Shown piece after piece: positions 1,733-64,000 of a stretch of DNA of 64,000 nucleotides; the stretch's first letter is position 1; each line of letters begins with the position of its first letter. Source of the stretch: Pegea sp. RAD2-039 (Eukaryota > Chordata > Thaliacea > Salpida > Salpidae). The DNA is taken from NCBI GenBank assembly GCA_034620365.1, contig JAQGEQ010000062.1, positions 228,184 through 292,183 on the forward strand, in the 5' to 3' direction. The position numbers were made by a program, and so were the translations under genes. The notes beneath the pieces were generated by a model, which made no database searches, had not been told where the DNA came from, and saw only the letters and a program-made list of their open reading frames with translations.

Positions 1733-4090
1733 ATTCAAGAAAATCGAAACAAAATGACTTTTTTATAGTTTTCAGTCGATTAAATTTTGATTTATTAAAA
1801 ACTTAAACTGATAATTACATGATAAGTGTAAAATGTTTTCAATTCTTAAAAGTAATACTTAAATAAAAAGAAAGTTTTGAGAAAAATAAATACTGTTTTT
1901 TTGTTTTAATTTTTATGGGTTATTGATATGAAAAAGGAAAATTTAATTTGAGGTTTGTTATTTTCAAGAAAACTTATTTTTCAAACTAATCTGCCAAATC
2001 AATTCTGACAACAGAACAAGTTCATAATTTTTTAGACGAGATAAAAAATACATTTTCTTATAACTAGCCAACTTCTAAAAAATAATTTAAACTTTTTAAC
2101 TTAATCTTAGTAACGATAAAAATTTGAATTATGTATTTATTTTTATAACAGATATTATATAAATATCATTAATTTATTAAAGTATTCACCAGTTATAAAA
2201 TTTAATTTTACAAATATCATAAATACCATATTTTGCAAAACTAAAAACCAACTTCATTGAGTAAAGCAATATAAACTATTTCTATAAAATCTATATCTAT
2301 TTTTTCGATTTAATTTAAAGAGATATTTTCTGATAAGTTTGTATCTTATCTTAATTTTATAATTTTTAAAACTCTAGCAATTAAATAGATAAAATAAAAT
2401 TCTGAGTATTTTCAAATATTTGCTAAAAAATATTATAAAATAAATTAAAAAGTTTATATTTTTTGTGAACTTAATGAAAGAGATCAACGTTTTTATAAAA
2501 AGCAGTTGTTAAACGTTTTATCTTACTAATCATAAGTTCATAGCTAAGTAAAAAATGGGATATAAACTAATTTAACAGCGGTTACATTAGAGATTTGAAA
2601 ATACTTTAATATCTGTTTAAAAGCTATCAGATAAGCCAAGATATCTTAGAATATAACATTAATATTAAAGCTGTTTTAAAATATAAAAGAAAAATATTAT
2701 TAGATAAGTGTAGGGTGATGAAGATATAAGACCTTAAAAAATAAACATCGAAGTGATACAGAAAATGATCGTTTTAAAGAAGTTATGAGATTAATTAATT
2801 TTTAAGAAGTTTTTTTCACATTTTTCTAGAATTATATTGTTTTTTTTGGCGATATTTAAAAATCAGCTAGTTTTTACGTAAACAACTTAAAACAAATGTT
2901 TTTGGTGTCATCTTCAAAACATCGGAGTTATTTTAGTTCAGGGGTCTTTTTTGGGGATTTTAAATTCAAAATGTTTTATTTCAATAACAAAAATAGAATT
3001 TGACAATTAAAAAGAAGATATTTTTATGGGTTTTTTTTTATTGCCTTATTTTCTGATTGGTGATGTATCGTTAACAATTAAAGAGCTTGTTACTGATGAA
3101 CAAATGTCAATATGTTTCTTTTTTATCAAGAGTAAGCAGGAATAAATTAATTTAATTAATTGAAACTCATTAAAACATAAACAGTTTGAGGTTTAAATAT
3201 TGAAATTAAATTTTCTTTTTTAAAACATTTCTCTTGAAAATAAAACACTTGAATGTTTTTACTTTTTGAATTTACAAATAACATCAAAAACTTCCGACTT
3301 TGATTCTATCTTTAAAGTAGAAGATTTCTGCTGACTCATTTTTGTAACTTGATGACAAGCAAATTTTGAAAAGCTGCAGAAGACTACTTCAAACAATACA
3401 GACCCTTACACTAGCAATAAATTCATCATATAATTTTATAAATGTTGATAAAAACATCTTTAACAAGCTAACAAATTATTAAATAGATGGTATTTAGATA
3501 CTAATTGTTTGAAGTTTTATCCTAAACATATTTAACCAGATCACTACTTACATAACACTAAATGCAAATATCTGAAGTGCCACGTGACTGATAAACAAGT
3601 TACGGGGCTAGCTGCTCAGTAACTACAAACTGTTTAGTGCCTATTTAGCTTTAATAATGGGTTGTTTAAAAAATCAAATTGAAAACACACACAACATAAG
3701 ATGCGGAAAAAAACAGTTGGTTACATTTTCAGGTTGATTATTCGGAAGAAAATCAAAAATATAGTTTTGTAGAGAACATGTGATCAATACTTGCGGCCTA
3801 CATGTGAAGTGACAACATGCAGAAGATCAGGCAGTAATATTTGATAAAAGTCGCAAGGTTTCTGCTCCCTCCCTTATAATGGAACTTTTAAAATACTGGG
3901 GGAGGTGATAAAAAAATAAACAAAAAAACAAGACACATGTTAAAGGATTTCATCAAATGTGTTGTAGACGAAGAAAAAGAAGTTTAGAATAAAATCTAAA
4001 CTTGAAATTACGTCGGAAAAGTACGAAGTAATTGACGAATTGTAGAATATTACATCAAGAAATATTTCAAATGAAAAAAAAATAAACTAA
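1733..4090. other. Intergenic DNA, no gene recognised
   Basis: About 2.4 kb of AT-rich sequence after the LITAF gene. The segment 3550-4060 is less AT-biased and holds short in-frame stretches broken by stops, such as a lysine/glutamate-rich run near 3945-4000, which could be relics of coding sequence. No family is recognisable. Confidence 0.5.
1885..1890 (+). terminator. AATAAA poly(A) signal of the LITAF gene
   Basis: Canonical AATAAA about 150 bp after the LITAF stop codon, preceded by another at 1862 and followed by a T-rich run. Inferred from position and sequence only. Confidence 0.5.
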
Positions 4091-4267
4091 ATGATGGAAG
4101 AAGTTATCAATGATATACAAAAAAAAAGCAAAATACCCCATGATTGTACTCTAGAAGAGATCGTAGAAGTACATCAGATACCAGTTTTTAATACTTTATT
4201 AAAAAAGAATAAAAAACTGAAAACCAGAGATAAATTACAACTAACAGTTCCTTTGATCAATAGTTAA
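4091..4267 (+). CDS. Small ORF with a LysM-like pattern (uncertain)
   Basis: Open frame of 58 codons starting with two ATGs and closed upstream by an in-frame TAA at 4088. The translation has the spacing of a LysM module: D-x-T-L-x-x-I, then isoleucine-proline seven residues on, a K-x-N in the middle and a final L-x-L-x-V-P. Eukaryotic LysM domains occur in LYSMD and OXR1/NCOA7-type proteins, which are much longer, so this would be one exon or a relic. No partner exon or splice sites could be fixed. It lies tail-side to the TBL1 gene on the other strand. A chance ORF in AT-rich DNA is a real alternative. Confidence 0.3.
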   Translation: MMEEVINDIQKKSKIPHDCTLEEIVEVHQIPVFNTLLKKNKKLKTRDKLQLTVPLINS

Positions 4268-4422
4268 AAGCCCCACCTTCGAGAGTCTCTGTCGTTTGAA
4301 CTTTCTTCTTTTTTTCAAATGTTGCTTTTCTTCAAAAGCAGTTTATTTTTTATTTCGAACTTGGAAATAACATTCGACCACTTTCACTTCTTTTAATTCT
4401 GCTATTAATTCTAGATTCTTTT

Positions 4423-7400
4423 TCAACACATTTTCAGGTCCAGAACACTAACCTATAAGGAGAAACAAATTATTACAATGTGTCGACTACATGAGCCTAC
4501 TGCTATTTTATCGATTTTTACAAGCAATGCAAGTCAGCAAACAGTTATTACTCTGATAACAGTTAGTGATGATTTCAGTAAACCATTTGAAAAATGGTTT
4601 TTTGGGAATATGGTTTCTAAAAAGAACTTACTGAACCATCAGACGCACTAGCACCAACTTTATTACCATCTTTATTCCAACAGACTTCGAAAATACCACC
4701 AGTACCAGTATAAGTGTGAATTAATTCACCAGTCTGTTGTGAGGAAGATATCAAACTTTCAAATATTCACGACAACTTTCGACAAGCTACCTGAGTACAC
4801 CAAATATGAACCCTCTTGTCAAACGAACCACTTGCTAATAGCCTTCCGTCAGGACTAAACGCAACTGAATAAACTGGTTCCGTGTGTTTTTTTAGTGTGT
4901 ATTTACAAGCACCTCGCTCTAAATCCCATAACCTAACAGTCGAGTCGAAGGAAGCGCTGTTGGAAATAGTTTAGAAGGAAACTAACCAGAAAGTTGGTTT
5001 AGTTACCTGGCGAGAGTTAGAGTCTGAGGATTACCAGTTCCAATACCAGAAGGACTCCATTTTATTGTATAAATTTCTTTTTTATGAGCATATAGATCTT
5101 GTACAAAGGTGTCGTGTTTCATTGACCACAACTATAAGTTAACAGCAGTCGTGTTAGGTAGAAGTAGTTGGTATTTATCACTAAATTATTTATATTCTTA
5201 TTTTTGTTATTTACAACGTAAAGCTGCTTCCATCTTACTTTTATTGTCATATCATCTGAACAAGATGCCAACCAAGTGCCCGACGGGTCCCATTTAATAG
5301 CATTTACTTCATTCTGTTGTAAAATACAAATTACATGAAGCAAGAAGACATGGAGTATGACTCACCGTATGACCTAGAAAGCTCTTTACAGGATGATTGT
5401 GTCCTAATTTACAAACTAATATACTTTTATCCGTTGAACAAGATGCAAAACTAAGGTTATTCTGCCAGTCAACATCTAACGCTGGAGCTGAAATATATAA
5501 ATTAGTTGAGATCATTCAGAAAAGTGGTTTGAAGAGGAGAGAATGATGATGTAAACATGAAATTGAACGAAACAACTGAAATTACTGAACATTTTAGTAG
5601 AATCTGGTGAAAAATTGACAAGTTGTTGACTCATACAAGCGAGAACACGTGACAAGTGAAGTTGTACAATCCATCAATTGATGAAGTGTAATTGTAAGTT
5701 AAATTATTTATGTAAAAAGTCGAATCACTATATCAAGTTGGTTTCTGTTTTCAAATTTCAAATTAAACAGCATCAAGAGATCGAAGCAGAGATGCTCCAT
5801 CAAAATACATAAGTTGGAAAACTTAAACATCAAATTTTGACATCATTAAACACTCTAGATGAAGATTTTCACCAGAAACTTGATCAAGATCACATTTGAA
5901 GTCAACTAACCATTATGGAAAGCAAATTGTTGCTTCAGTTTCCCTGTATTTGCATCCCAGATAATCGTAGTTTTATCAACTCCGGCACTCAAGATAAAAT
6001 TCCCTTTTTTATTCCATTTTAACGCAAAGATTGGACCTTTGTGTTCACCTAGAGTTCGCTCCAATCTGCCTAAAAACCAACAGAATTGAAAATAATTTAA
6101 AAGTTGATGGGTTTGTAAATAGACGATGAAATGTTTAAACACAAAACCATTTATTTACTTTTCATGAACTTTTTATGAATTAATCTTCAAAATAATCAGA
6201 AACAACTAAATTTTGTTGAAAAAGAAGAAGATCAGAAGAAGATGACATTAAAGAAGCAAGAACTAGATCACGTGACTTTAAAAACACTTGTTGAATATCA
6301 GCAGCAGCGGCGGCAGAGAAATCTGACAATAGAGTTGCGCTGACTAGTAGATCACGTGACCCAACTCACATTTCAATGGTTATTGAAGAAACTGAATCAA
6401 TAGAATATGGAAATAAAACGCGCTTTCGAGGTGTTCAACGAAGCGTGACCGGGTAGTTTTGTGTGAACAAAGTGAGTATTAGTAAAAAGTTAACTGGTAA
6501 ATAGATTGAGAGTTAGAAAATGATTTTTTGCTGAAATACATTGGTGAAGGTGACATAAAATCCAACTAAACAGACGGAAGCTTCTAGACTTAAAAAATGT
6601 GTTGTTTGTTGAAATGGAAATATGAAAATATCAGCTGACAACAAATGATCTAATTACACAATTTGTCAATAAGAGATAGTTAGAGGATGGTTATAAAACT
6701 CTTTTTGATAATTATCAAAAACCACAAAAGCTCTGAATATGTGTGTTTGTATGACAAAGCAAAGATAAGAAAGAGTGAAGAATTATAAATGAAAGAGCAG
6801 TCATCTAATATCGCTGGCGGCTATCATGAAAAAGATATAAAAAGTTAGAATAAAATTTAAGATAAAAAAGTTGGTAGAATTGATGAACGAACTACTCGTA
6901 GTTGATGAGTTAACTCAGTTTCTACAAGGCTAGTTACGTAACAGCAAAGGCTGGTATGTCACGCATCACTACTTTCAACGTCTCTCTTCTGTCAGTCTAT
7001 AACTGAGATTTAAATTTGACGGAAAAGATATAAAAAGTAAATTTTTGAAGAACTTGCTTGCCAATATACAAGTTTACAAGTTGTAACAGAAAACATTTGA
7101 CAAACTAGAAATGGACAAACAGATTTGCAACAAACATTTAATTTGAGAAATTCTAGTAAATTTCAATTTGAGAATGCAATCAATGATTAATTTAAATTTT
7201 GGAAATGATTTGAAACAAATCAGAAATAAAAAGGTCAAGTGAAATATTTTGTTTACTTATAACCTTGAAATTAAAAGTCTGCAGACATGCTAGAAATTTC
7301 AAGAAATGTTTTAAATACCTCCTCAACAATTATCATGTTTAAAAAACAACTGTTATTTTCAATGAAGGAATATTAAAAGAACGAGTTAATAGAATACAAG

Positions 7401-36135: not shown

Positions 36136-36703
36136 ATTAATTTGCTGTAAACTAACCCCATATAATGCTCTCAGAGATTGTGCTTTTGATAAATTACAAA
36201 ATGTATTCAAATATTATAAGAATTTGGTAAACAAATGGGGTGTCTGTTATAAAAATTACAAAATAAACTTTACTGCCAAGAGAAAACATTTCTTCAAAAT
36301 ATTATTTCATATCAAAAGCAATGAAACAAAATTTCATGAAATAAAATCGAAAATTAATTTAATTACTGTTCTAAAAATTAGTTTTTCTTTTAAAATAATA
36401 TCATAGCAGTCAAAATTTAAAGTTAAAATTTCGTTAAGATCACATAATGTTAAAAGACATTAATTTAATAAAGTAAAACATATCTCATGCAATTACAACA
36501 GAATGATAAAATGTTAACAAATCGAATGTTGGTAAAAGAGATTTGAAAAGGTATTTCTTCTAATTAAATACTTGGTAACAATAACTACTTCGTCATTCAA
36601 AACAAATTCTGTTTTTTAAAAGCTTAAAACAGAATGATGGATTATACTCTGTGTTGATTTTGATGGGTTTAAATTTTTTTGTTATTCTATACAATTAATC
36701 TTT
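36136..36703. other. Intergenic DNA, no gene seen
   Basis: AT-rich. An open frame near 36224-36406 is lysine/phenylalanine-rich low-complexity sequence and is not supported. Confidence 0.4.
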
Positions 36704-36948
36704 CTTCATAGTCTTGTGATAACTTTAAAAATTAGTGTAATTATTTTTGACAGATAATAACTTAAAACAACAGATCAACAACAACAAATTATGTTTGTTT
36801 TTTTGCATAAAAAATGTATATAACCCGTTAACTTCCAGTGTTCGTTACCATTCAAACTTATTCCAGTTGAATAATAATTTGTAAAGAATTGAAAATGAAT
36901 TTCAAAACTTTTTTCCTTTTGACTTTAGTCATTGCTTCTGCTTCTGCT
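36704..36948. repeat. Inverted repeat arm 1: promoter plus signal-peptide exon
   Basis: This segment is nearly identical to the reverse complement of 40462-40707. By eye the last 200 bp or so, through codon 18 of the gene, show no mismatch. The outer 45 bp carry a few. Identity stops abruptly at the end of the signal-peptide codons. It contains the TATA-like box, start region and ATG of the secreted-protein gene. Confidence 0.9.
36817..36823 (+). promoter_or_regulatory. TATA box of secreted-protein gene 1
   Basis: TATATAA 72 bp before the ATG, in the stretch shared perfectly with the other paralog. The expected transcription start would fall near 36845-36855. Confidence 0.55.
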
Positions 36949-39486: not shown

Positions 39487-40515
39487 TTAATAAGTTGCAG
39501 AGGTGGATGCACTTGCTGATGCCTTGGCACAAGATTGAAGAGGATTATTTGTTGTTGATGTAAATGTCGAAGATTTTGATGCAAACTTTGGAAGACTTCT
39601 TCCACACAAGACAGGGGCTTTAAGAAGAGGCTGACACGATTGAACTAGAAACAGAATAAAGTCATTAAATATTTTGGTAGTTGGCAATAAAACACAAATT
39701 TTATGATTAGTTTAAATTTTAAAAACAAATAAATTGTTTGAAATTAACTTATTTAATTTTTATTACTTACTTTTTGGGACACAGGTTGGTTTAATCAACG
39801 GAAGTGGTCTTGAACAAAGTGTCACTTCTGGGACTTTGATTTTGAAATTAAAGCATTTTGTAAGTGGCATCATTTTAGTACAAGCAGAAGCTCTTGCATA
39901 AACTCGAACCACTAAATGAAAAATTTTCATTAAGTGCATCGAAAGAATACTTAGCTAGAAAATAGCTAACCTGGAGCAGAGATACAGAACTTTCGGATGT
40001 TGTAGTGATGATGTGGTACTTTTACGATTGGAACAACTGATTCACAAGCTGTCAGGATACAATATTTACTTGTAATTATCTATAAAACTTATCTTATAAT
40101 TACGATAAGTTGTTAAGTAATTTTCTGTTATCAGTTAAAATCTGATAGATAAATCAAATATAAGTTTGTTAAAAAGTAATTAATTGTTGCAACTTATATA
40201 ATAAATAGCTAAATTATGTTAACTTGGTTTTAATTAGTTTTCTTCAATTTATTAATACAAAGTATCTTTTAAATATGTCATAAATATAAAAGTTAAAATT
40301 TAAAATAATTGAAAAGTTTGCATACGTTCTGGAATGTTATCTGGTGCTGGTAGAACTAACGAAGTTGGTTCTTCGACTGGTTCTTCTGGTACAGGTAAGT
40401 CAAGAGTAATTGGTTCTTCAACAGGATCAGCAGCAAAGACTGGTTCGTCCATAACTGTTAAAGCAGAAGCAGAAGCAATGACTAAAGTCAAAAGGAAAAA
40501 AGTTTTGAAATTCAT
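39487..40515 (-). CDS. Secreted Cys-containing protein, paralog of the gene at 36895
   Basis: Four exons (40326-40515, 39971-40048, 39771-39911, 39487-39644), 188 residues. The first 18 residues are identical to the signal peptide of the gene at 36895. A short Pro/Glu-rich acidic stalk (VPEEPVEEP) replaces the DEPA array. Exon 2 (CESVVPIVKVPHHHY) matches exon 2 of the paralog in pattern but is clearly diverged. Exons 3-4 are new: scattered cysteines, basic patches and a Ser/Thr/Ala-rich C-terminus. Secretion is well supported; function is unknown. The 5' half of the locus is the second arm of the inverted repeat, so both genes probably share regulation. It converges on gene 1, with about 1.7 kb between the stops. 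Confidence 0.85.
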
Positions 40516-40707
40516 TTTCAATTCTTTACAAATTATTATTCAACTGGAATAAGTTTGAATGGTAACGAACACTGGAAGTTAACGGGTTATATACATTTTT
40601 TATGCAAAAAAACAAACATAATTTGTTGTTGTTGATCTGTTGTTTTAAGTTATTATCTGTCAAAAATGATTGTACTAAATTGTAAAGTTATCACAAGACT
40701 ATGAAAA
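40462..40707. repeat. Inverted repeat arm 2: promoter plus signal-peptide exon
   Basis: Reverse complement of 36704-36948, with no mismatch seen over the inner 200 bp. It includes a minus-strand TATATAA at 40587-40593, 72 bp before the ATG, exactly as in arm 1. Confidence 0.9.
40587..40593 (-). promoter_or_regulatory. TATA box of secreted-protein gene 2
   Basis: TATATAA in the conserved promoter arm, same sequence context and distance to the ATG as in gene 1. Confidence 0.55.
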
Positions 40708-41860
40708 AAGATATCGATCAGAAAAAATAACAAAATGTAACAAGTAATTGTTTTGATGTTCGTTGAAAGTTCAATAGTTAGTGTTTATTGACTTTACTTC
40801 ATTTACAAATCAATCTATCTTCCTGTTTGTGAATTCACTAGTTTTGTAACATATATTTATTAAAATAAGAGCTTGTTATGAGATGTCTTAAAAGACTATT
40901 TGATTTAGTTTTATGTATATTAGAAGTGGATTAATCATTTCTCCACATTTTGTATATTACAAAATTTATATCTTAACTTTTGACAAAATAAAACTGAATT
41001 ATGATTAAAGCGAATTTTCATAGAATTTTATAAAACTGACATTTATTACAAAAGTTTCAAACTTCAATTAGTTGAGTATTGTTTAAACACTTACAAACAT
41101 AAGTTGTATGTTTAAAGATCATGCCACCATAACGAGTATTTAGATTAATTACGTTCAGAAAACAATTATGTAGTTCTTTGATGTTTATTTCTTAAAGCAA
41201 CGCCTTATGTAACATATATTTTCAGAATGTATTTTTGTTAAATTATTCAACTTTTATTTTCATAAAATTGTTAAAATTTTGAAAATGACATTAAATGTAT
41301 GAAAATATGATTAAATGTTTCAGGCAATAAAAAATATAAACCTATTTTATGAAAACAACTTTTTAAAAGAAGATTTCATTCAGTAGGATTTACTAACGAA
41401 ACACATTTTATTCTAAATACTGTTTGCAATCGGTTAACTTCTAAATAACAAAGATATTTTCTGTGCAAGGAAATAACTATAATATTTGGAAACTTTTTAG
41501 TTAATAAACTTTTGAAATAGCCAAACAAACCTAACTTAACTAATACTAAACCGTAACTAGTTGATGATGTTAACTTTATATATTATTAGAAATACAAAAA
41601 CAATTATAGTTTGTTTTAATTAAAATCTTCAACTACAAACAAACAAAACTGTTTCTACATTAAAAACTTCTAAACTAAAAACTTATTTTGTTTCCTTCAA
41701 GAAAACTGGCAAATGATTAAATGAAAAAATATCTTGTTTTCTTTATTTTATATAAAAAGAAAAAGTTTGTAGAAAAATAAACAATCATAATTTTGAAGAG
41801 ACGAATACAAAGATGAAAATTTAAGAGCCAAACCCTTCACCAGATCTTTAAAAAAGTCAT
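40708..41860. other. Intergenic DNA; 3' flank of the BRCA2-like gene
   Basis: AT-rich. It was searched on the minus strand for exons that could add a C-terminal DNA-binding domain to the BRCA2-like gene. None was seen. Confidence 0.5.
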
Positions 41861-44800
41861 TTATTCATCTTTAAATAAAGAAGCTGTTTTCTGTAAACTT
41901 GAATTTGAAACTGAAATTTGATTTTGAGAGCTGCGTTTGAAACCAAGATATCGTCTTGATGAAATTGTAGGAACAAGAGAGGTTTTTCCATCAAGTCTCC
42001 TAGGAGGTTTGTATCCACGCTTTCTTTTTACTTTTATACTTTTTGGAATAATTTTCTGGTTTACTGAACTTTCACTTTTATCCACAAAAAATCTTTCATT
42101 ATTTACATCTTCTACTTCAGATGAAGATTCTGAATTTTTATGACCATCTACCAACAATCTTTTATCATTTACAGAATCATTAGAATCAAATATTAATGAC
42201 TCAACTGATTGTAGTGATTCAACTTTAACACAAACTACTTTTTTACTTGCTGTTTCAAATCCTGTTTTGATAACTTTTGAATCAATGTTTTTATGACAAC
42301 GAGATTCTGTTGTAAGTTCTCTTGAAGAACGTTTCATATTTTGATGACAAATAAGTTGGTTTGAACGTTTAACACCTTTTCTTGAAACCAAATGATCTGT
42401 TTTTGAAGTTAGAATGTCATTAGAGGAAGTAGTTGATTTATTTGAAATATTTGAAGTTTCTTCAACTTTATCATTTCTTGTAATGTTGTTTATACTTTTA
42501 CTACTTTCTAACTTATCTACTAAACTTTCAAACAACAAATTTGCTTTTTTTATGGATTGCTTTTTTACTTTTAGTAATTTGTTGCTAGCTGTTTTGAAAC
42601 CAACTTCAAATTTATTTAGATCATCAAAACATTTTCTTCCACAAATCTTTTTATCTTCATCAAAATCTCTATTTTCTTTGTCATTTACTTTTAATTTTGT
42701 TGTTTTATTTTCAATATTTTCAACATTTAATAAATCTTCTTGTGAATTGTTAAAGACTCTATCAATTTGAGTCATTGTAAAACCTAAAAGTTCATCCTTT
42801 TCAGAGTCTTGTGTTGTTTGTTTTTGGGAGCAAATAGTTGGGTCAACTGCAACATCTTTAACTTGAAGATTATCAGCTGATACTTCAGATAAAATTTCAT
42901 TTTTTTTGGAACCTTTTTGACTTGAGAGATTTAAACTTTTGCAAAAATCTTTTTTAGTTTCTTCATTAAGAGTCAAATCTTTTTTATCCAAACTCAAATT
43001 ATTATCTTCTACTTCAGATGAAGATTTTGAATTTTTATGACCATCTACCAACAATCTTTTATCATTTACAGAATCATTAGAATCAAATATTAATGATTCA
43101 ACTGATTGTAGTGATTCAACTTTAACACAAACTACTTTTTTACTTGCTGTTTCAAATCCTGTCTTGATAACTTTTGAATCAATGTTTTTATGACAACGAG
43201 AATCTGTTGTAAGTTCTCTTGAAGAACGTTTCATATTTTGATGACAAATAAGTTGGTTTGAACGTTTAACACCTTTCCTTGAAACCAAATGATCTGTTTT
43301 TGAAGTTAGAATGTCATTAAAGGAAGTAGTTTTGAAATCAGAAGTAAAACTAGTCGATGATTTTATACTTTTTTCATCTGTTTCATCATTCAACAAACTT
43401 TTTGATTTTGATAAAGAATCAACTGAAATTATTAAACTTTTGTTATTTGTAGTTTGAAAATCCACTATATTTGACAAATCACATGATTTATCTGAAGTAG
43501 TTGATTTATTTGAAATATTTGAAGTTTCTTCAATTTTATCATTTCTTGTAATGTTGTTTATACTTTTACTACTTTCTAATTTATCTACTAAACTTTCAAA
43601 CAACAAATTTGCTTTTTTTATGGATTGCTTTTTTACTTTTAGTAATTTGTTGCTAGCTGTTTTGAAACCAACTTCAAATTTATTTAGATCATCAAAACAT
43701 TTTCTTCCACAAATCTTTTTATCTTCATCAAAATCTCTATTTTCTTTGTCAACTACTTTTAATTTTGTTGTTTTATTTTCAATATTTTCAACATTTAATA
43801 AATCTTCTTGTGAATTGTTAAAGACTCTATCAATTTGAGTCATTGAAAAATCTAAAAGTTCATCTTTTTCAGAGTCTTCTTTTGTTTGTTTTTGGGAGCA
43901 AATAGTTGGGTCAACTGCAACATCTTTAACTTGAAGATTATCAGCTGATACTTTAGATAAAACATCATTTTTTTTGGAATCTTTTTGACTTGAGAGATTT
44001 AATCTTTTGCAAAAATCTTTTTTAGTTTCTTCATTAAGAGTCAAATCTTTTTTATCTTTTGTAACTTCAGTTGAAAAATGAGGAGATTGTTTACAATTTT
44101 GAGTTTCAGAAAAAACTTTTTTGTGTTTCTTTGAATTAATAATTTTCTTCTCACAAAAATTTGACTTGTTTTTGGATGAAAGACTTTGAAATCCATGTCT
44201 TTCAGGATTAGAATCATCTGATTTAATTTTGAAAACTTGTTGAGGGTTTTTGAAATCAACTTCACAAGGTAATGACAAGTTGACCTTGGACAGTTTCAAA
44301 CTTTTATCATCACAACTTAAATATTTAAAATTTTTTCTTTTATTTGAAACAATTACTTGATGGCTCTCTTGATGTCTGCTTACATGTTTTGGAACTACTT
44401 TTTGATAGGGTTGAAGACATTTTGAATGATAATTTCCATCAAGTGAAAATCTTTTAGCTGAAACTTGTGATTTGAGGCTATTATTATCTTTGTGATGATT
44501 GGTAAATTGCCCGAATGATTTACTTCTACAACTAGAAGTTGCTGTGAAACTTTCACTTAGATTTGGTGACTGATTCCAACTGTAGTTATCATAAAATGAT
44601 TTGTGAAAATGATTTGCAGATTTCATTTTCTTTTTTGGGGTTGATGATGTGGGTATTGAATCTAATTTAGCTGATAAATTTTGTTGTTCACTTTCTATAT
44701 GAGAAATATAAGCTTGTGTTAATGAAATATCTTCATCTACAATTTCTTCATCTTCATTCGAGGAAATATCCAGCAAAGAGCTAAATATAATTAGAAAGAT

Positions 44801-45398
44801 AAATTTTTAACATATCTGAAACTAAACTCGAAATAGTTATCTTAATCTTGATCAAAATAATCAAACTGTTTGTTCATACTTACTATGAAGCTTTAGAATT
44901 GCATGCATCATCTGATACTTTGACATTATCAACTAGTAGTTGATACCAGTCTTTATTAAGTTCACCTAGATCTACAAAATTTATCAAATATAAGTTAAAA
45001 AATTTATAAGTTTTTCTTTATTACTGAATTCTAAAAATTAAAAACAATCAATAACATATTAGCTAGCAAAAAACACTGTAGAAATTTACTTTAGATTTTT
45101 GCTAAAAGAAAACAAATATATTTTGATTTTATTAAATTAGCAAAATATATTTTTTAATTTCCTTTAAAAATAAATTTGAATGTAAAGCTAAATTGTTTCA
45201 GTAGACTGAAAAAGAAGACGAATATATCAAATTAATCTTATATAAGTAAACTTATGTAAAAATGATTTATCAAACTTTATATTGAAATTAGATTATGATT
45301 TTTAAAACAAAAACTTCATAAATACCTTCAACAAAAGATTCGTCTTCTAAAATTTGTTGAATTGTACCAAAAAGAAAATCATTATTATTAGCTGACAT
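41861..45398 (-). CDS. BRCA2: BRCA2-like protein with six BRC-type repeats, no DNA-binding domain
   Basis: Three exons (45326-45398, 44884-44971, 41861-44780), in phase, 1026 residues. Residues 25-38 read DLGELNKDWYQLL, matching the spacing DLG-x5-W-aromatic-x-x-L of the human BRCA2 N-terminal PALB2 contact. BRC-type repeats, which bind RAD51 through an F-x-x-A motif and a later L-F/L-x-x-E step, lie at residues 425 (FKTA), 495 (FQTT, degenerate), 595 (FETA), 781 (FKTA), 894 (FETA) and 1000 (FKRS, ending SLFKDE at the last codon). The rest is lysine/serine/asparagine-rich and disordered-looking. Members load RAD51 in homologous recombination in the nucleus. There is no helical/OB-fold domain; the frame ends six residues after the last BRC core. 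Residues 297-651 and 653-946 are a recent tandem duplication. The name rests on the BRC repeats plus the N-terminal motif. Confidence 0.82.
42104..44053. repeat. Tandem segmental duplication inside the BRCA2-like exon
   Basis: Two direct copies, 42988-44053 and 42104-42987, nearly identical at DNA level. The copies are offset by 1068 bp (356 codons). The second lacks an internal segment of about 58 codons that carries the degenerate BRC-type repeat. The frame is kept in both. Confidence 0.9.
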
Positions 45399-59895: not shown

Positions 59896-62800
59896 GGGAT
59901 CAAAAGAAGATTCAAGGATCAAAAGAAGATTCAAGGATCAAAAGAAGATTCAAGGATCAAAAGAAGATTCAAGGATCAAAAGAAGATTCAAGGATCAAAA
60001 GAAGATTCAAGGATCAAAAGAAGATTCAAGGATCAAAAGAGGATTCAAGGATCAAAAGAAGATTCAAGGATCAAAAGAAGATTCAAGGATCAAAAGAAGA
60101 TTCAAGGATCAAAAGAAGATTCAAGGATCAAAAGAAGATTCAAGGATCAAAAGAAGATTCAAGGATCAAAAGAGGATTCAAGGATCAAAAGAAGATTCAA
60201 GGATCAAAAGAAGATTCAAGGATCAAAAGAAGATTCAAGGATCAAAAGAAGATTCAAGGATCAAAAGAAGATTTAAGGATCAAAAGAGGATTCAAGGATC
60301 AAAAGAAGATTCAAAGATCAAAAGAAGATTCAAGGATCAAAAGAAGATTCAAGGATCAAAAGAAGATTCAAGGATCAAAAGAAGATTCAAGGATCAAAAG
60401 AAGATTCAAGATTCAAGGATCAAAAGAAGATTCAAGGATCAAAAGAAGATTCAAGGATCAAAAGAAGATTTAAGGATCAAAAGAGGATTCAAGGATCAAA
60501 AGAAGATTCAAAGATCAAAAGAAGATTCAAGGATCAAAAGAAGATTCAAAGATCAAAAGAAGATTCAAGGATCAAAAGAAGATTCAAGGATCAAAAGAAG
60601 ATTCAAGGATCAAAAGAAGATTCAAGGATCAAAAGAAGATTCAAGAATCAAAAGAAGATTCAACGATCAAAAGAGGATTCAAAGATGAAAAGAAGATTCA
60701 AGAATCAAAAGAAGATTCAACGATCAAAAGAAGATTCAAGGATCAAAAAAAAATTCAAGAATCAAAAGAGGATTCAAGGATCAAAAGAAGATTCAAGGAT
60801 CAAAAGAAGATTCAAGGATCAAAAGAAGATTCAAGGATCAAAAGAAGATTCGAGGAACAAAAGAAGATTCAAGGATCAAAAGAAGATTCAAGGATCAAAA
60901 GAAGATTCAAGGATCAAAAGAAGATTCAAGGATCAAAAGAAGATTCAAGAATCAAAAGAAGATTTAAGGATCAAAAGAGGATTCAAGGATCAAAAGAAGA
61001 TTCAAGGATCAAAAGAAGATTCAAGGATCAAAAGAAGATTCAAGGATCAAAAGAAGATTCAAGGATCAAAAGAAGATTCAACGATCAAAAGAGGATTCAA
61101 GGATCAAAAGAAGATTCAAGGATCAAAAGAAGATTCAAGGATCAAAAGAAGATTCAAGGATCAAAAGAGGATTCAAAGATCAAAAGAAGATTCAAGGATC
61201 AAAAGAAGATTCAAGGATCAAAGAAGATTCAAGGATCAAAAGAGGATTCAAGGATCAAAAAAAGATTCAAGAATCAAAAGAATATTCAAGGATCAAAAGA
61301 AGATTCAAGGATCAAAAGAAGATTCAAGGAACAAAAGAAGATTCAAGGATCAAAAGAGGATTCAAGGATCAAAAGAAGATTCAAGAATCAAAAGAAGATT
61401 CAAAGATCAAAAGAAGATTCAAGGATCAAAAGAAGATTCAACGATCAAAAGAGGATTCAAGGATCAAAAGAAGATTCAAGAATCAAAAGAAGATTCAAGG
61501 ATCAAAAGAGGATTCAAGGATCAAAAGAAGATTCAAGGATCAAGAGAAGATTCAAGGATCAAAAGAAGATTCAAGGATCAAAAGAAGATTCAAGGATCAA
61601 AAGAAGATTCAAGGATCAAAAGAAGATTCAAGGAACAAAAGAAGATTCAAGGATCAAAAGAAGATTCAAGAATCAAAAGAAGATTCAAGGATCAAAAGAA
61701 GATTCAAGGATCAAAAGAAGATTCAAGGATCAAAAGAAGATTCAAGGATCAAAAGAGGATTCAAGGATCAAAAGAAGATTCAAGGATCAAAAGAAGATTC
61801 AAGGATCAAAAGAAGATTCAAGGATCAAAAGAGGATTCAAGGATCAAAAGAAGATTCAAGGATCAAAAGAGGATTCAAGGAACAAAAGAAGATTCAAGGA
61901 TCAAAAGAAGATTCAAGGATCAAAAGAAGATTCAAGGATCAAAAGAAGATTCAAGAATCAAAAGAGGATTCAAGGATCAAAAGAAGATTCAAGGATCAAA
62001 AGAGGATTCAAGGATCAAAAGAAGATTCAAGGATCAAAAGAAGATTCAAGGATCAAAAGAAGATTCAAGGATCAAAAGAAGATTCAAGGATCAAAAGAAG
62101 ATTCAAGGAACAAAAGAAGATTCAAGGATCAAAAGAAGATTCAAGGATCAAAAGAAGATTCAAGGATCAAAAGAAGATTCAAGGATCAAAAGAAGATTCA
62201 AGGATCGAAAGAAGATTCAAGAATCAAAAGAAGATTCAAGAATCAAAAGAAGATTCAAGGATCAAAAGAGGATTCAAGAATCAAAAGAAGATTCAAAGAT
62301 CAAAAGAAGATTCAAGGATCAAAAGAAGATTCAAGGATCAAAAGAAGATTCAAGAATCAAAAGAGGATTCAAGGATCAAAAGAGGATTCAAGGATCAAAA
62401 GAAGATTCAAGGATCAAAAGAAGATTCAAGAATCAAAAGAAGATTTAAGGATCAAAAGAAGATTCAAGAATCAAAAGAAGATTCAAGGATCAAAAGAAGA
62501 TTCAAGGATCAAAAGAAGATTCAAGGATCAAAAGAAGATTCAACGATCAAAAGAGGATTCAAGGATCAAAAGAAGATTCAAGGATCAAAAGAAGATTCAA
62601 GGATCAAAAGAAGATTTAAGGATCAAAAGAAGATTCAAGAATCAAAAGAAGATTCAAGGATCAAAAGAAGATTCAAGGATCAAAAGAAGATTCAAGAATC
62701 AAAAGAAGATTTAAGGATCAAAAGAAGATTCAAGAATCAAAAGAAGATTCAAGGATCAAAAGAAGATTCAAGGATCAAAAGAAGATTCAAGGATCAAAAG

Positions 62801-64000
62801 AAGATTCAACGATCAAAAGAGGATTCAAGGATCAAAAGAAGATTCAAGGATCAAAAGAAGATTCAAGGATCAAAAGAAGATTCAAGAATCAAAAGAGGAT
62901 TCAAGGATCAAAAGAAGATTCAAGGATCAAAAGAAGATTCAAGGATCAAAAGAAGATTCAAGGATCAAAAGAAGATTCAAGGATCAAAAGAAGATTCAAC
63001 GATCAAAAGAGGATTCAAGGATCAAAAGAAGATTCAAGGATCAAAAGAAGATTCAAGGATCAAAAGAAGATTCAAGGATCAAAAGAGGATTCAAAGATCA
63101 AAAGAAGATTCAAGGATCAAAAGAAGATTCAAGGATCAAAAGAAGATTCAAGGATCAAAAGAGGATTCAAGGATCAAAAAAAGATTCAAGAATCAAAAGA
63201 AGATTCAAGGATCAAAAGAAGATTCAAGGATCAAAAGAAGATTCAAGGAACAAAAGAAGATTCAAGGATCAAAAGAGGATTCAAGGATCAAAAGAAGATT
63301 CAAGAATCAAAAGAAGATTCAAAGATCAAAAGAAGATTCAAGGATCAAAAGAAGATTCAACGATCAAAAGAGGATTCAAGGATCAAAAGAAGATTCAAGG
63401 ATCAAAAGAAGATTCAAGGATCAAAAGAAGATTCAAGGATCAAAAGAAGATTCAAGAATCAAAAGAAGATTCAAGGATCAAAAGAAGATTCAACGATCAA
63501 AAGAGGATTCAAGGATCAAAAGAAGATTCAAGGATCAAAAGAAGATTCAAGGATCAAAAGAAGATTCAACGATCAAAAGAGGATTCAAGGATCAAAAGAA
63601 GATTCAAGGATCAAAAGAAGATTCAAGGATCAAAAGAAGATTCAACGATCAAAAGAGGATTCAAGGATCAAAAGAAGATTCAAGGATCAAAAGAAGATTC
63701 AAGGATCAAAAGAAGATTCAAGAATCAAAAGAAGATTCAAGAATCAAAAGAAGATTCAAGGATCAAAAGAGGATTCAAGGATCAAAAGAAGAATCAAGGA
63801 TCAAAAGAAGATTCAAGGATCAAAAGAAGATTCAAGGATCAAAAGAAGATTCAAGAATCAAAAGAAGATTCAAGGATCAAAAGAAGATTCAAGAATCAAA
63901 AGAAGATTCAAGGATCAAAAGAGGATTCAAGGATCAAAAGAAGATTCAAGGATCAAAAGAAGATTCAAGAATCAAAAGAAGATTCAAGAATCAAAAGAAG
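59896..64000. repeat. 19-bp minisatellite, about 216 units, runs off the window
   Basis: Unbroken head-to-tail array of the unit gattcaaggatcaaaagaa with a small set of variants (agg for aag at the unit start; caagaatc, caacgatc, caaagatc or ggaac in the middle) and rare single-base indels near 60410, 61215 and 61290. Because 19 is not a multiple of three, every plus-strand frame reads a 19-residue lysine-rich repeat; these open frames are by-products and not genes. Blocks recur at multiples of the unit, for example 1919 bp (101 units) and 266 bp (14 units) apart. It begins 20 bp upstream of the first recognised ARHGEF10-like exon on the minus strand, so it probably lies in an intron or just 5' of that gene. 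Confidence 0.97.

Follow-up and report, generated by a model that had tools for sequence, protein, structure and literature searches.

A BRCA2-like gene with a PALB2-type motif and BRC repeats but no detectable DNA-binding domain in what is most likely a tunicate genome

Results

Gene structure and genomic surroundings

The window analyzed here is a 64-kb stretch of DNA that contains 0 Ns. A three-exon gene lies on its minus strand at 45398-41861 and encodes a protein of 1026 amino acids, which agrees in both span and residue count with a sequence-only reading of the window that had proposed a BRCA2-like gene at 41861..45398. Exon 1 (45326..45398, 73 nt) begins with ATG, encodes residues 1-24 and the first base of the Asp25 codon, and ends at the donor G/GTATTT; its frame joins that of exon 2 (44884..44971, 88 nt), which carries a PALB2-type motif, DLGELNKDWYQLL. 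Exon 3 (41861..44780, 2920 nt including the stop codon) encodes linker regions, six BRC repeats and a basic tail. Both introns have GT and AG ends. The large frame stays open for 981 codons in local DNA of 24-26% G+C, and the protein is rich in lysine (13.6%) and serine (14.5%), with only 15 prolines. A search with the whole protein, using words drawn from the first 500 residues (mostly linker), returned no homologs at E <= 10 among 7990 scored candidates, and the exon 3 sequence had no match in PDB.

A separate frame downstream is encoded on the same strand, has an apparent signal peptide and starts approximately 1.3 kb past the BRCA2-like gene. Elsewhere in the window, 36698-36948 and 40462-40712 form an inverted 251-bp duplication with 97.6% identity, which holds the starts of two opposite-facing frames with a shared apparent signal peptide (MNFKTFFLLTLVIASASA); one of these frames runs on into an ADEP repeat with a 12-base unit. 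A 19-base satellite (GGATCAAAAGAAGATTCAA) with approximately 216 copies and 94% matches occupies 59897-64000, up to the last base of the window, where the contig ends as well.

N-terminal motif and orthology

The DLG-x5-WY-x-x-L motif noticed near the N-terminus in the sequence-only reading is present as DLGELNKDWYQLL, which covers residues 25-37 (minus strand, 44934-44971 plus base 45326). It was assigned by sequence match, and approximately 1.2e-6 such motifs are expected by chance in a protein of the same composition. We take the human counterpart to be DLGPISLNWFEEL, so that the protein has Tyr at the key aromatic site where human BRCA2 presumably has Phe. An intron immediately precedes the DLG triplet and splits the Asp25 codon after its first base. 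Human BRCA2 exon 3 starts at c.68, and loss of the exon is described as p.Asp23_Leu105del (PMC3198910); the Asp23 codon of the human gene is thus split at the same point and in the same phase (c.67/c.68). Residues 21-39 of human BRCA2 are reported to bind the WD40 domain of PALB2 (PMC5915120).

The sequence features that would mark BRCA2 in the broad sense, namely BRC repeats with FxxA-type and hydrophobic modules, a PALB2-type motif and the position and phase of this intron, all appear in the gene. Because the motif, the intron phase and the BRC array occur together, the gene is most likely an ortholog of BRCA2 rather than another RAD51 binder.

BRC repeats and a recent internal duplication

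The Pfam BRCA2 repeat model (PF00634) matches the whole protein with E 2.7e-14, and four stretches pass alone. The repeats are arranged in the order A1, B, C1, A2, C2, D, so that A and C each occur twice. Cut out singly and compared with PF00634, they gave E-values of 2.6e-5 (A), 6.8e-4 (B), 0.04 (C) and 4e-4 (D); only repeat A, taken singly, exceeds the Pfam cut-off, and the terminal repeat D, at 20.2 bits, falls just short of the cut-off of 20.3. Two further F-containing segments cut out of the protein had no PF00634 match. A custom loose BRC expression found 6 instances in the protein, compared with a mean of 0.16 and a maximum of 3 in 2000 shuffles. Profile, single-repeat matches and shuffles together bear out the six BRC-type repeats proposed earlier.

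All repeats are encoded by exon 3 on the minus strand: A1 at 43586..43669 (residues 425-452), B at 43379..43462 (residues 494-521), C1 at 43076..43159 (residues 595-622, with an FETA core), A2 at 42518..42601 (residues 781-808), C2 at 42179..42262 (residues 894-921) and D at 41864..41944 (residues 1000-1026). A2 and C2 are identical in protein sequence to A1 and C1, respectively, and the stop codon, TAA, stands immediately 3' of repeat D, as had been described.

Repeats A and C are doubled because of an internal tandem duplication. The first copy (43004..44056, minus strand) contains an extra 171 nt, including repeat B, which is found only there; the second copy (42107..42988, minus strand) is without these 171 nt. 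The copies align as two blocks, 563 nt at 97.5% identity and 328 nt at 98.2%, with offsets of 1068 and 897 nt. The copies are nearly identical, so that, to judge from their alignment, the protein came by its six repeats recently. Of the base changes between the copies, 19 are nonsynonymous and 6 synonymous (pN 0.027, pS 0.034): replacements per site are nearly as frequent as silent changes, and the overall constraint on the duplicated stretch is therefore weak. BRC cores, which make up 59 of the 295 aligned codons, hold none of the 15 replaced codon pairs (hypergeometric P 0.03), two of which sit at alignment edges. It thus seems that the linkers are drifting whereas the repeats are being conserved.

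A profile search of the 105.7-Mb genome found no second BRC locus over the cut-off, so a second full-length BRCA2, which would have made this gene a partial copy, did not come to light. The search returned eight rows: four at the gene itself, two of them over the cut-off, and four elsewhere, in frames of 27-51 aa, with E-values no better than 1.2. At the gene it missed two of the six repeats, C1 and C2.

C-terminal tail and basic stretches

Past the last duplicated block the gene continues with KVKRKRGYKPPRRLDGKTSLVPTISSRRY, repeat D and TAA. This part includes a basic tail (residues 961-1003; 41933..42061, minus strand) with 15 K/R against 1 D/E, a candidate nuclear localization signal and DNA-contact region, in which the basic sequence KRKRGYKPPRR is kept. 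A second candidate DNA-contact region is a basic N-terminal stretch at residues 181-300 (44042..44401, minus strand) with 26 K/R against 13 D/E.

Within the tail, YKPPRR (residues 977-982; 41996..42013, minus strand) resembles the FxPPR recombinase-filament motif encoded by exon 27 in vertebrates. The single PP pair of the protein falls within [FY]xPPR, for which 0.0004 instances are expected by composition; [FY]xPPR was found in 8 of 20000 shuffles and the looser [FYW]xPP in 243 of 20000, frequencies to be read with the motif having been picked after it was seen. Vertebrate BRCA2 proteins that reach far enough carry FxPPR beyond the DNA-binding domain (DBD), in contexts such as KTFNPPRRSGTP. 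The motif is described as binding RAD51 or DMC1 filaments and shielding them from BRC peptides (PMC11436757). YKPPRR has Tyr where vertebrates have Phe, its flanks are not alignable, and the DEELAxIxTQAL element that follows FxPPR in vertebrates is absent from the protein. We also considered aligning repeat D with the human sequence beyond FQPPR but dropped this, since the vertebrate proteins compared do not conserve that stretch.

We consider it rather probable that YKPPRR is a motif of the vertebrate FxPPR type, in which case the DBD disappeared from inside the protein. The vertebrate motif that YKPPRR resembles is located C-terminal to the DBD, which suggests an internal loss and not a truncation or a split gene. 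Neither this motif nor the recent duplication that accounts for the number of repeats figures in the sequence-only reading.

Search for the DNA-binding domain

The genome searched comprises 105,744,746 bases in 387 contigs. Among Pfam models, BRCA-2_helical, BRCA-2_OB1 and BRCA-2_OB3 (PF09169, PF09103 and PF09104) had no match genome-wide, nor did the 597-aa DBD of mouse BRCA2 used as a query. This genome search is a loose first look, in which the control genomes, those named for the RAD51/DMC1 search being prokaryotes, likewise gave no match for the three DBD models. Profile and pattern tests for the DBD were added because no control genome matched these models.

A local profile of the helical/OB1/OB2 core was built from 17 aligned proteins out of 81 BRCA2 proteins and tested on pieces of held-out proteins, with a database of two million frames assumed for the E-values. 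At every cut size, at least one piece was recognized in each of the 13 held-out proteins; the pieces recognized were 73 of 127 at 30 aa, 71 of 93 at 40 aa, 48 of 62 at 60 aa and 31 of 38 at 90 aa. Because it was resemblance to the mouse DBD that had brought these 13 proteins into the set, the test covers DBDs diverged to the same degree or less, and a far more diverged one could escape. This sensitive profile, which covered the window and its contig (C142), recognized nothing in 1734 frames of the 64-kb window (best E 5.4) or in 12326 frames of the 292,183-base contig (best E 0.9). A profile of OB3 and the tower (10 rows) also found nothing in the same contig (best E 3.9). The absence of a downstream DBD exon, previously claimed for 1.1 kb, thus extends across the whole window and the 292-kb contig.

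When the genome was scanned with a 32-base degenerate DNA pattern of the helical core and a tolerance of 3 mismatches, a single match, on contig C222 and with 3 mismatches, was obtained. We rejected it as a chance match: the frame is 18 aa long, has a stop just before the motif and lies antisense to a 455-aa frame. When the 3010 frames of the fetched loci were scored with the DBD profile, this 18-aa frame reached E 0.006, a value that applies to a frame preselected by the pattern. A 455-aa frame on this contig (887-2254 of the fetched locus) is, by eye, rich in TGACGTCA palindromes.

The genome-wide hunt for a separate gene with the helical/OB-fold domain of BRCA2 thus yielded none by Pfam models, mouse DBD or DNA pattern, and on these searches the case for absence of the DBD from the genome is strong but not proven. 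The helical/OB1/OB2/tower/OB3 domain that marks canonical BRCA2 was not found, and the gene shows the combination of BRC repeats and no detectable DBD that marks noncanonical BRCA2.

Partner genes

The same genome search recovered RAD51, DMC1, an RPA1-type OB fold and DSS1. The RAD51 protein is 85% identical to human RAD51 over 324 aa, and the loop that binds FxPP reads IEQGGGE, compared with IDRGGGE in human. RAD51 (1219-2238 of its fetched locus, contig C106) and DMC1 (1489-2511 of its fetched locus, contig C250) are single open frames without introns. The RPA1-type C-terminal OB fold was found as two adjacent pieces. RAD52 had no match, a result given no weight because two prokaryotes were the only controls that matched.

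A DMC1 search returned 2542 proteins. Among the best 120, which were examined, the closest had 91% identity, and the named leaders were Clavelina (85%) and Styela (83%), followed by the sponge Amphimedon (83%). The query and 44 of these 120 were used for a midpoint-rooted tree, which groups the query with Clavelina, Styela and six more sequences in one clade (support 100). DMC1 thus most likely places the genome among tunicates.

A DSS1 gene is present in the genome; no DSS1-binding domain was found on the BRCA2-like protein. DSS1 has other jobs, for example in the proteasome. A 392-aa protein, P0079, carries DSS1 and BRCA2 OB1 domains according to precomputed Pfam labels and is possibly a natural DSS1/BRCA2 OB1 fusion.

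For PALB2 we found a weak candidate, a WD40 protein on contig C262 (locus L013) with E 0.0068; a second test gave E 4.5e-4 and 19.7 bits, short of the Pfam cut-off of 27, and among PDB sequences its WD40 part is more similar to WDR5. PALB2 has been dated late, 'before vertebrates emerged' (PMC3969565). At 3978-6999 of locus L018, the frame of the WD40 PALB2 candidate starts approximately 75 bases after a frame on the same strand read as PPAT (amidophosphoribosyltransferase), and the two could form an operon.

Discussion

A probable internal loss of the DNA-binding domain

We consider it probable (roughly 80%) that the gene is a tunicate BRCA2 ortholog which lost its DBD as an internal piece and in which the PALB2 motif, the BRC repeats and a putative recombinase-binding tail remain. 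From what is known of the family, the BRC repeats would bind monomers of RAD51, and perhaps of DMC1. PALB2 docking and the two basic stretches might then take over from the DBD in bringing this RAD51 cargo to resected DNA, after which the YKPPRR tail could stabilize the filament, while DSS1 would serve its other jobs. There are precedents for both ways of reaching DNA. A mammalian BRCA2 fusion without the DBD is described as active and wholly dependent on PALB2 binding, and DSS1 as dispensable in mammalian cells when its domain on BRCA2 is missing (PMC3240595). A moss BRCA2 without the DBD is reported to bind single-stranded DNA via a basic disordered region (PMC12412785). Judged by its motifs and composition, the tunicate protein has both options, in the PALB2-type motif and in the basic stretches at 181-300 and 961-1003. 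The suggestion of a reduced BRCA2 that must reach DNA by another route is supported; no recognizable DBD came up in gene, contig or genome search.

More tentatively, this could be a chordate without a BRCA2 DBD that loads RAD51 through PALB2 and basic tails, and in which YKPPRR and a BRC repeat 24 residues away act as a load-and-lock module. If true, this would be a natural experiment for the redundancy of PALB2 and the DBD seen in mammalian constructs.

Alternative explanations

An unlikely alternative is that the DBD is encoded elsewhere, or has diverged past recognition, and acts in trans or is joined by trans-splicing. Tunicate proteins evolve fast and tunicates trans-splice; moreover, the genome-wide absence rests on one search method and an assembly of 387 contigs, and this search left two of the six BRC repeats of the gene itself undetected. 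However, neither the Pfam DBD models nor the mouse DBD found anything genome-wide, and the only pattern match is the closed 18-aa frame on C222. Pieces of the DBD core as short as 30 aa were recognized in 13 of 13 held-out proteins, and none was recognized on the contig. A split gene with OB folds elsewhere, which the sequence-only reading had left as a second option, is disfavored, as no helical, OB1 or OB3 domain appeared in a genome where RPA1, DSS1, RAD51 and DMC1 were found, and as the search for a further BRC locus came back empty.

It is more unlikely still that the gene model is wrong, with the true mRNA splicing out the stop codon, or that the gene is a decayed, truncated pseudogene. 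The weak score of repeat D, just under the cut-off, and the closeness of pN to pS between the internal copies speak for this reading. However, the 981-codon open frame and the lack of a second BRC locus speak against it. The 200 bases that precede the stop codon contain three GTA/GTG sites, at 42039, 42031 and 42018, and their use would remove YKPPRR and repeat D. The separate same-strand frame with its apparent signal peptide follows from approximately 1.3 kb downstream, and the replacements between the internal copies avoid the BRC cores.

Finally, a BRC-bearing protein other than BRCA2, either a paralog or an unrelated RAD51 binder, would fit the failure to find similarity to any BRCA2 outside the motifs (protein search to E 10; exon 3 against PDB) but is very improbable given the PALB2-type motif with the human BRCA2 intron phase, the tandem BRC repeats and an xPPR tail arranged in the order of BRCA2, and a genome in which no other BRC loci were found.

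Comparison with known systems

BRCA2 is a tumor suppressor gene, and its DNA-binding domain carries much of its clinical importance. Even so, engineered constructs, Drosophila and mosses suggest that BRCA2 can do without this domain. BRCA2 is described as occurring in two kinds, with and without the DBD, the latter in Drosophila and mosses (PMC12412785), and by its recognizable domains the gene reported here belongs to the latter, noncanonical kind. We found no report of a tunicate or chordate BRCA2 without a DBD among the titles and abstracts listed in searches of the open-licence literature, and the chordate case appears to be new. Tunicates are the sister group of vertebrates, and loss of the DBD with the PALB2 site kept would be a third independent loss.

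The moss protein, PpBRCA2 of Physcomitrium patens, is similar in having BRC repeats, no canonical DBD and disordered basic stretches, but is described as a protein of 391 aa encoded by a single exon, with four BRC repeats and from an independent lineage (PMC12412785), whereas the gene reported here encodes 1026 aa in three exons and has a PALB2-type motif and a YKPPRR tail. BRCA2 of Drosophila melanogaster, likened here by its description, also has BRC repeats and no canonical DBD (PMC12412785); Drosophila is an insect, whereas the animal studied here is most likely a tunicate, and has DMC1. Insects, which had been brought in for comparison along with some protists, serve poorly as such: the DMC1 tree points to tunicates, and insects are not generally without the domain, since BRCA2 proteins of at least two, Bemisia and Timema, carry the helical and OB1 domains (PF09169 and PF09103). 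A recent expansion of BRC repeats is also reported for BRCA2 of Trypanosoma brucei (PMC2408642), which is a protist; here the expansion is one internal duplication of approximately 1 kb.

Canonical vertebrate BRCA2 shares with this gene the PALB2-type N-terminus with the same intron phase, the BRC array and, as a resemblance, a C-terminal [FY]xPPR. Unlike canonical vertebrate BRCA2, the protein has no detectable helical, OB or tower domains and no DEELAxIxTQAL element, and a BRC repeat follows xPPR. The role of DNA binding by BRCA2 would become testable by comparison of animals with and without the domain. A parallel to the proposed function is the mammalian fusion of Siaud et al. 2011 (PMC3240595), which as described combines the PALB2 site and BRC repeats without the DBD. 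That fusion is a laboratory construct, whereas the gene reported here is a natural one and would be the natural counterpart of a DBD-deleted, PALB2-dependent BRCA2.
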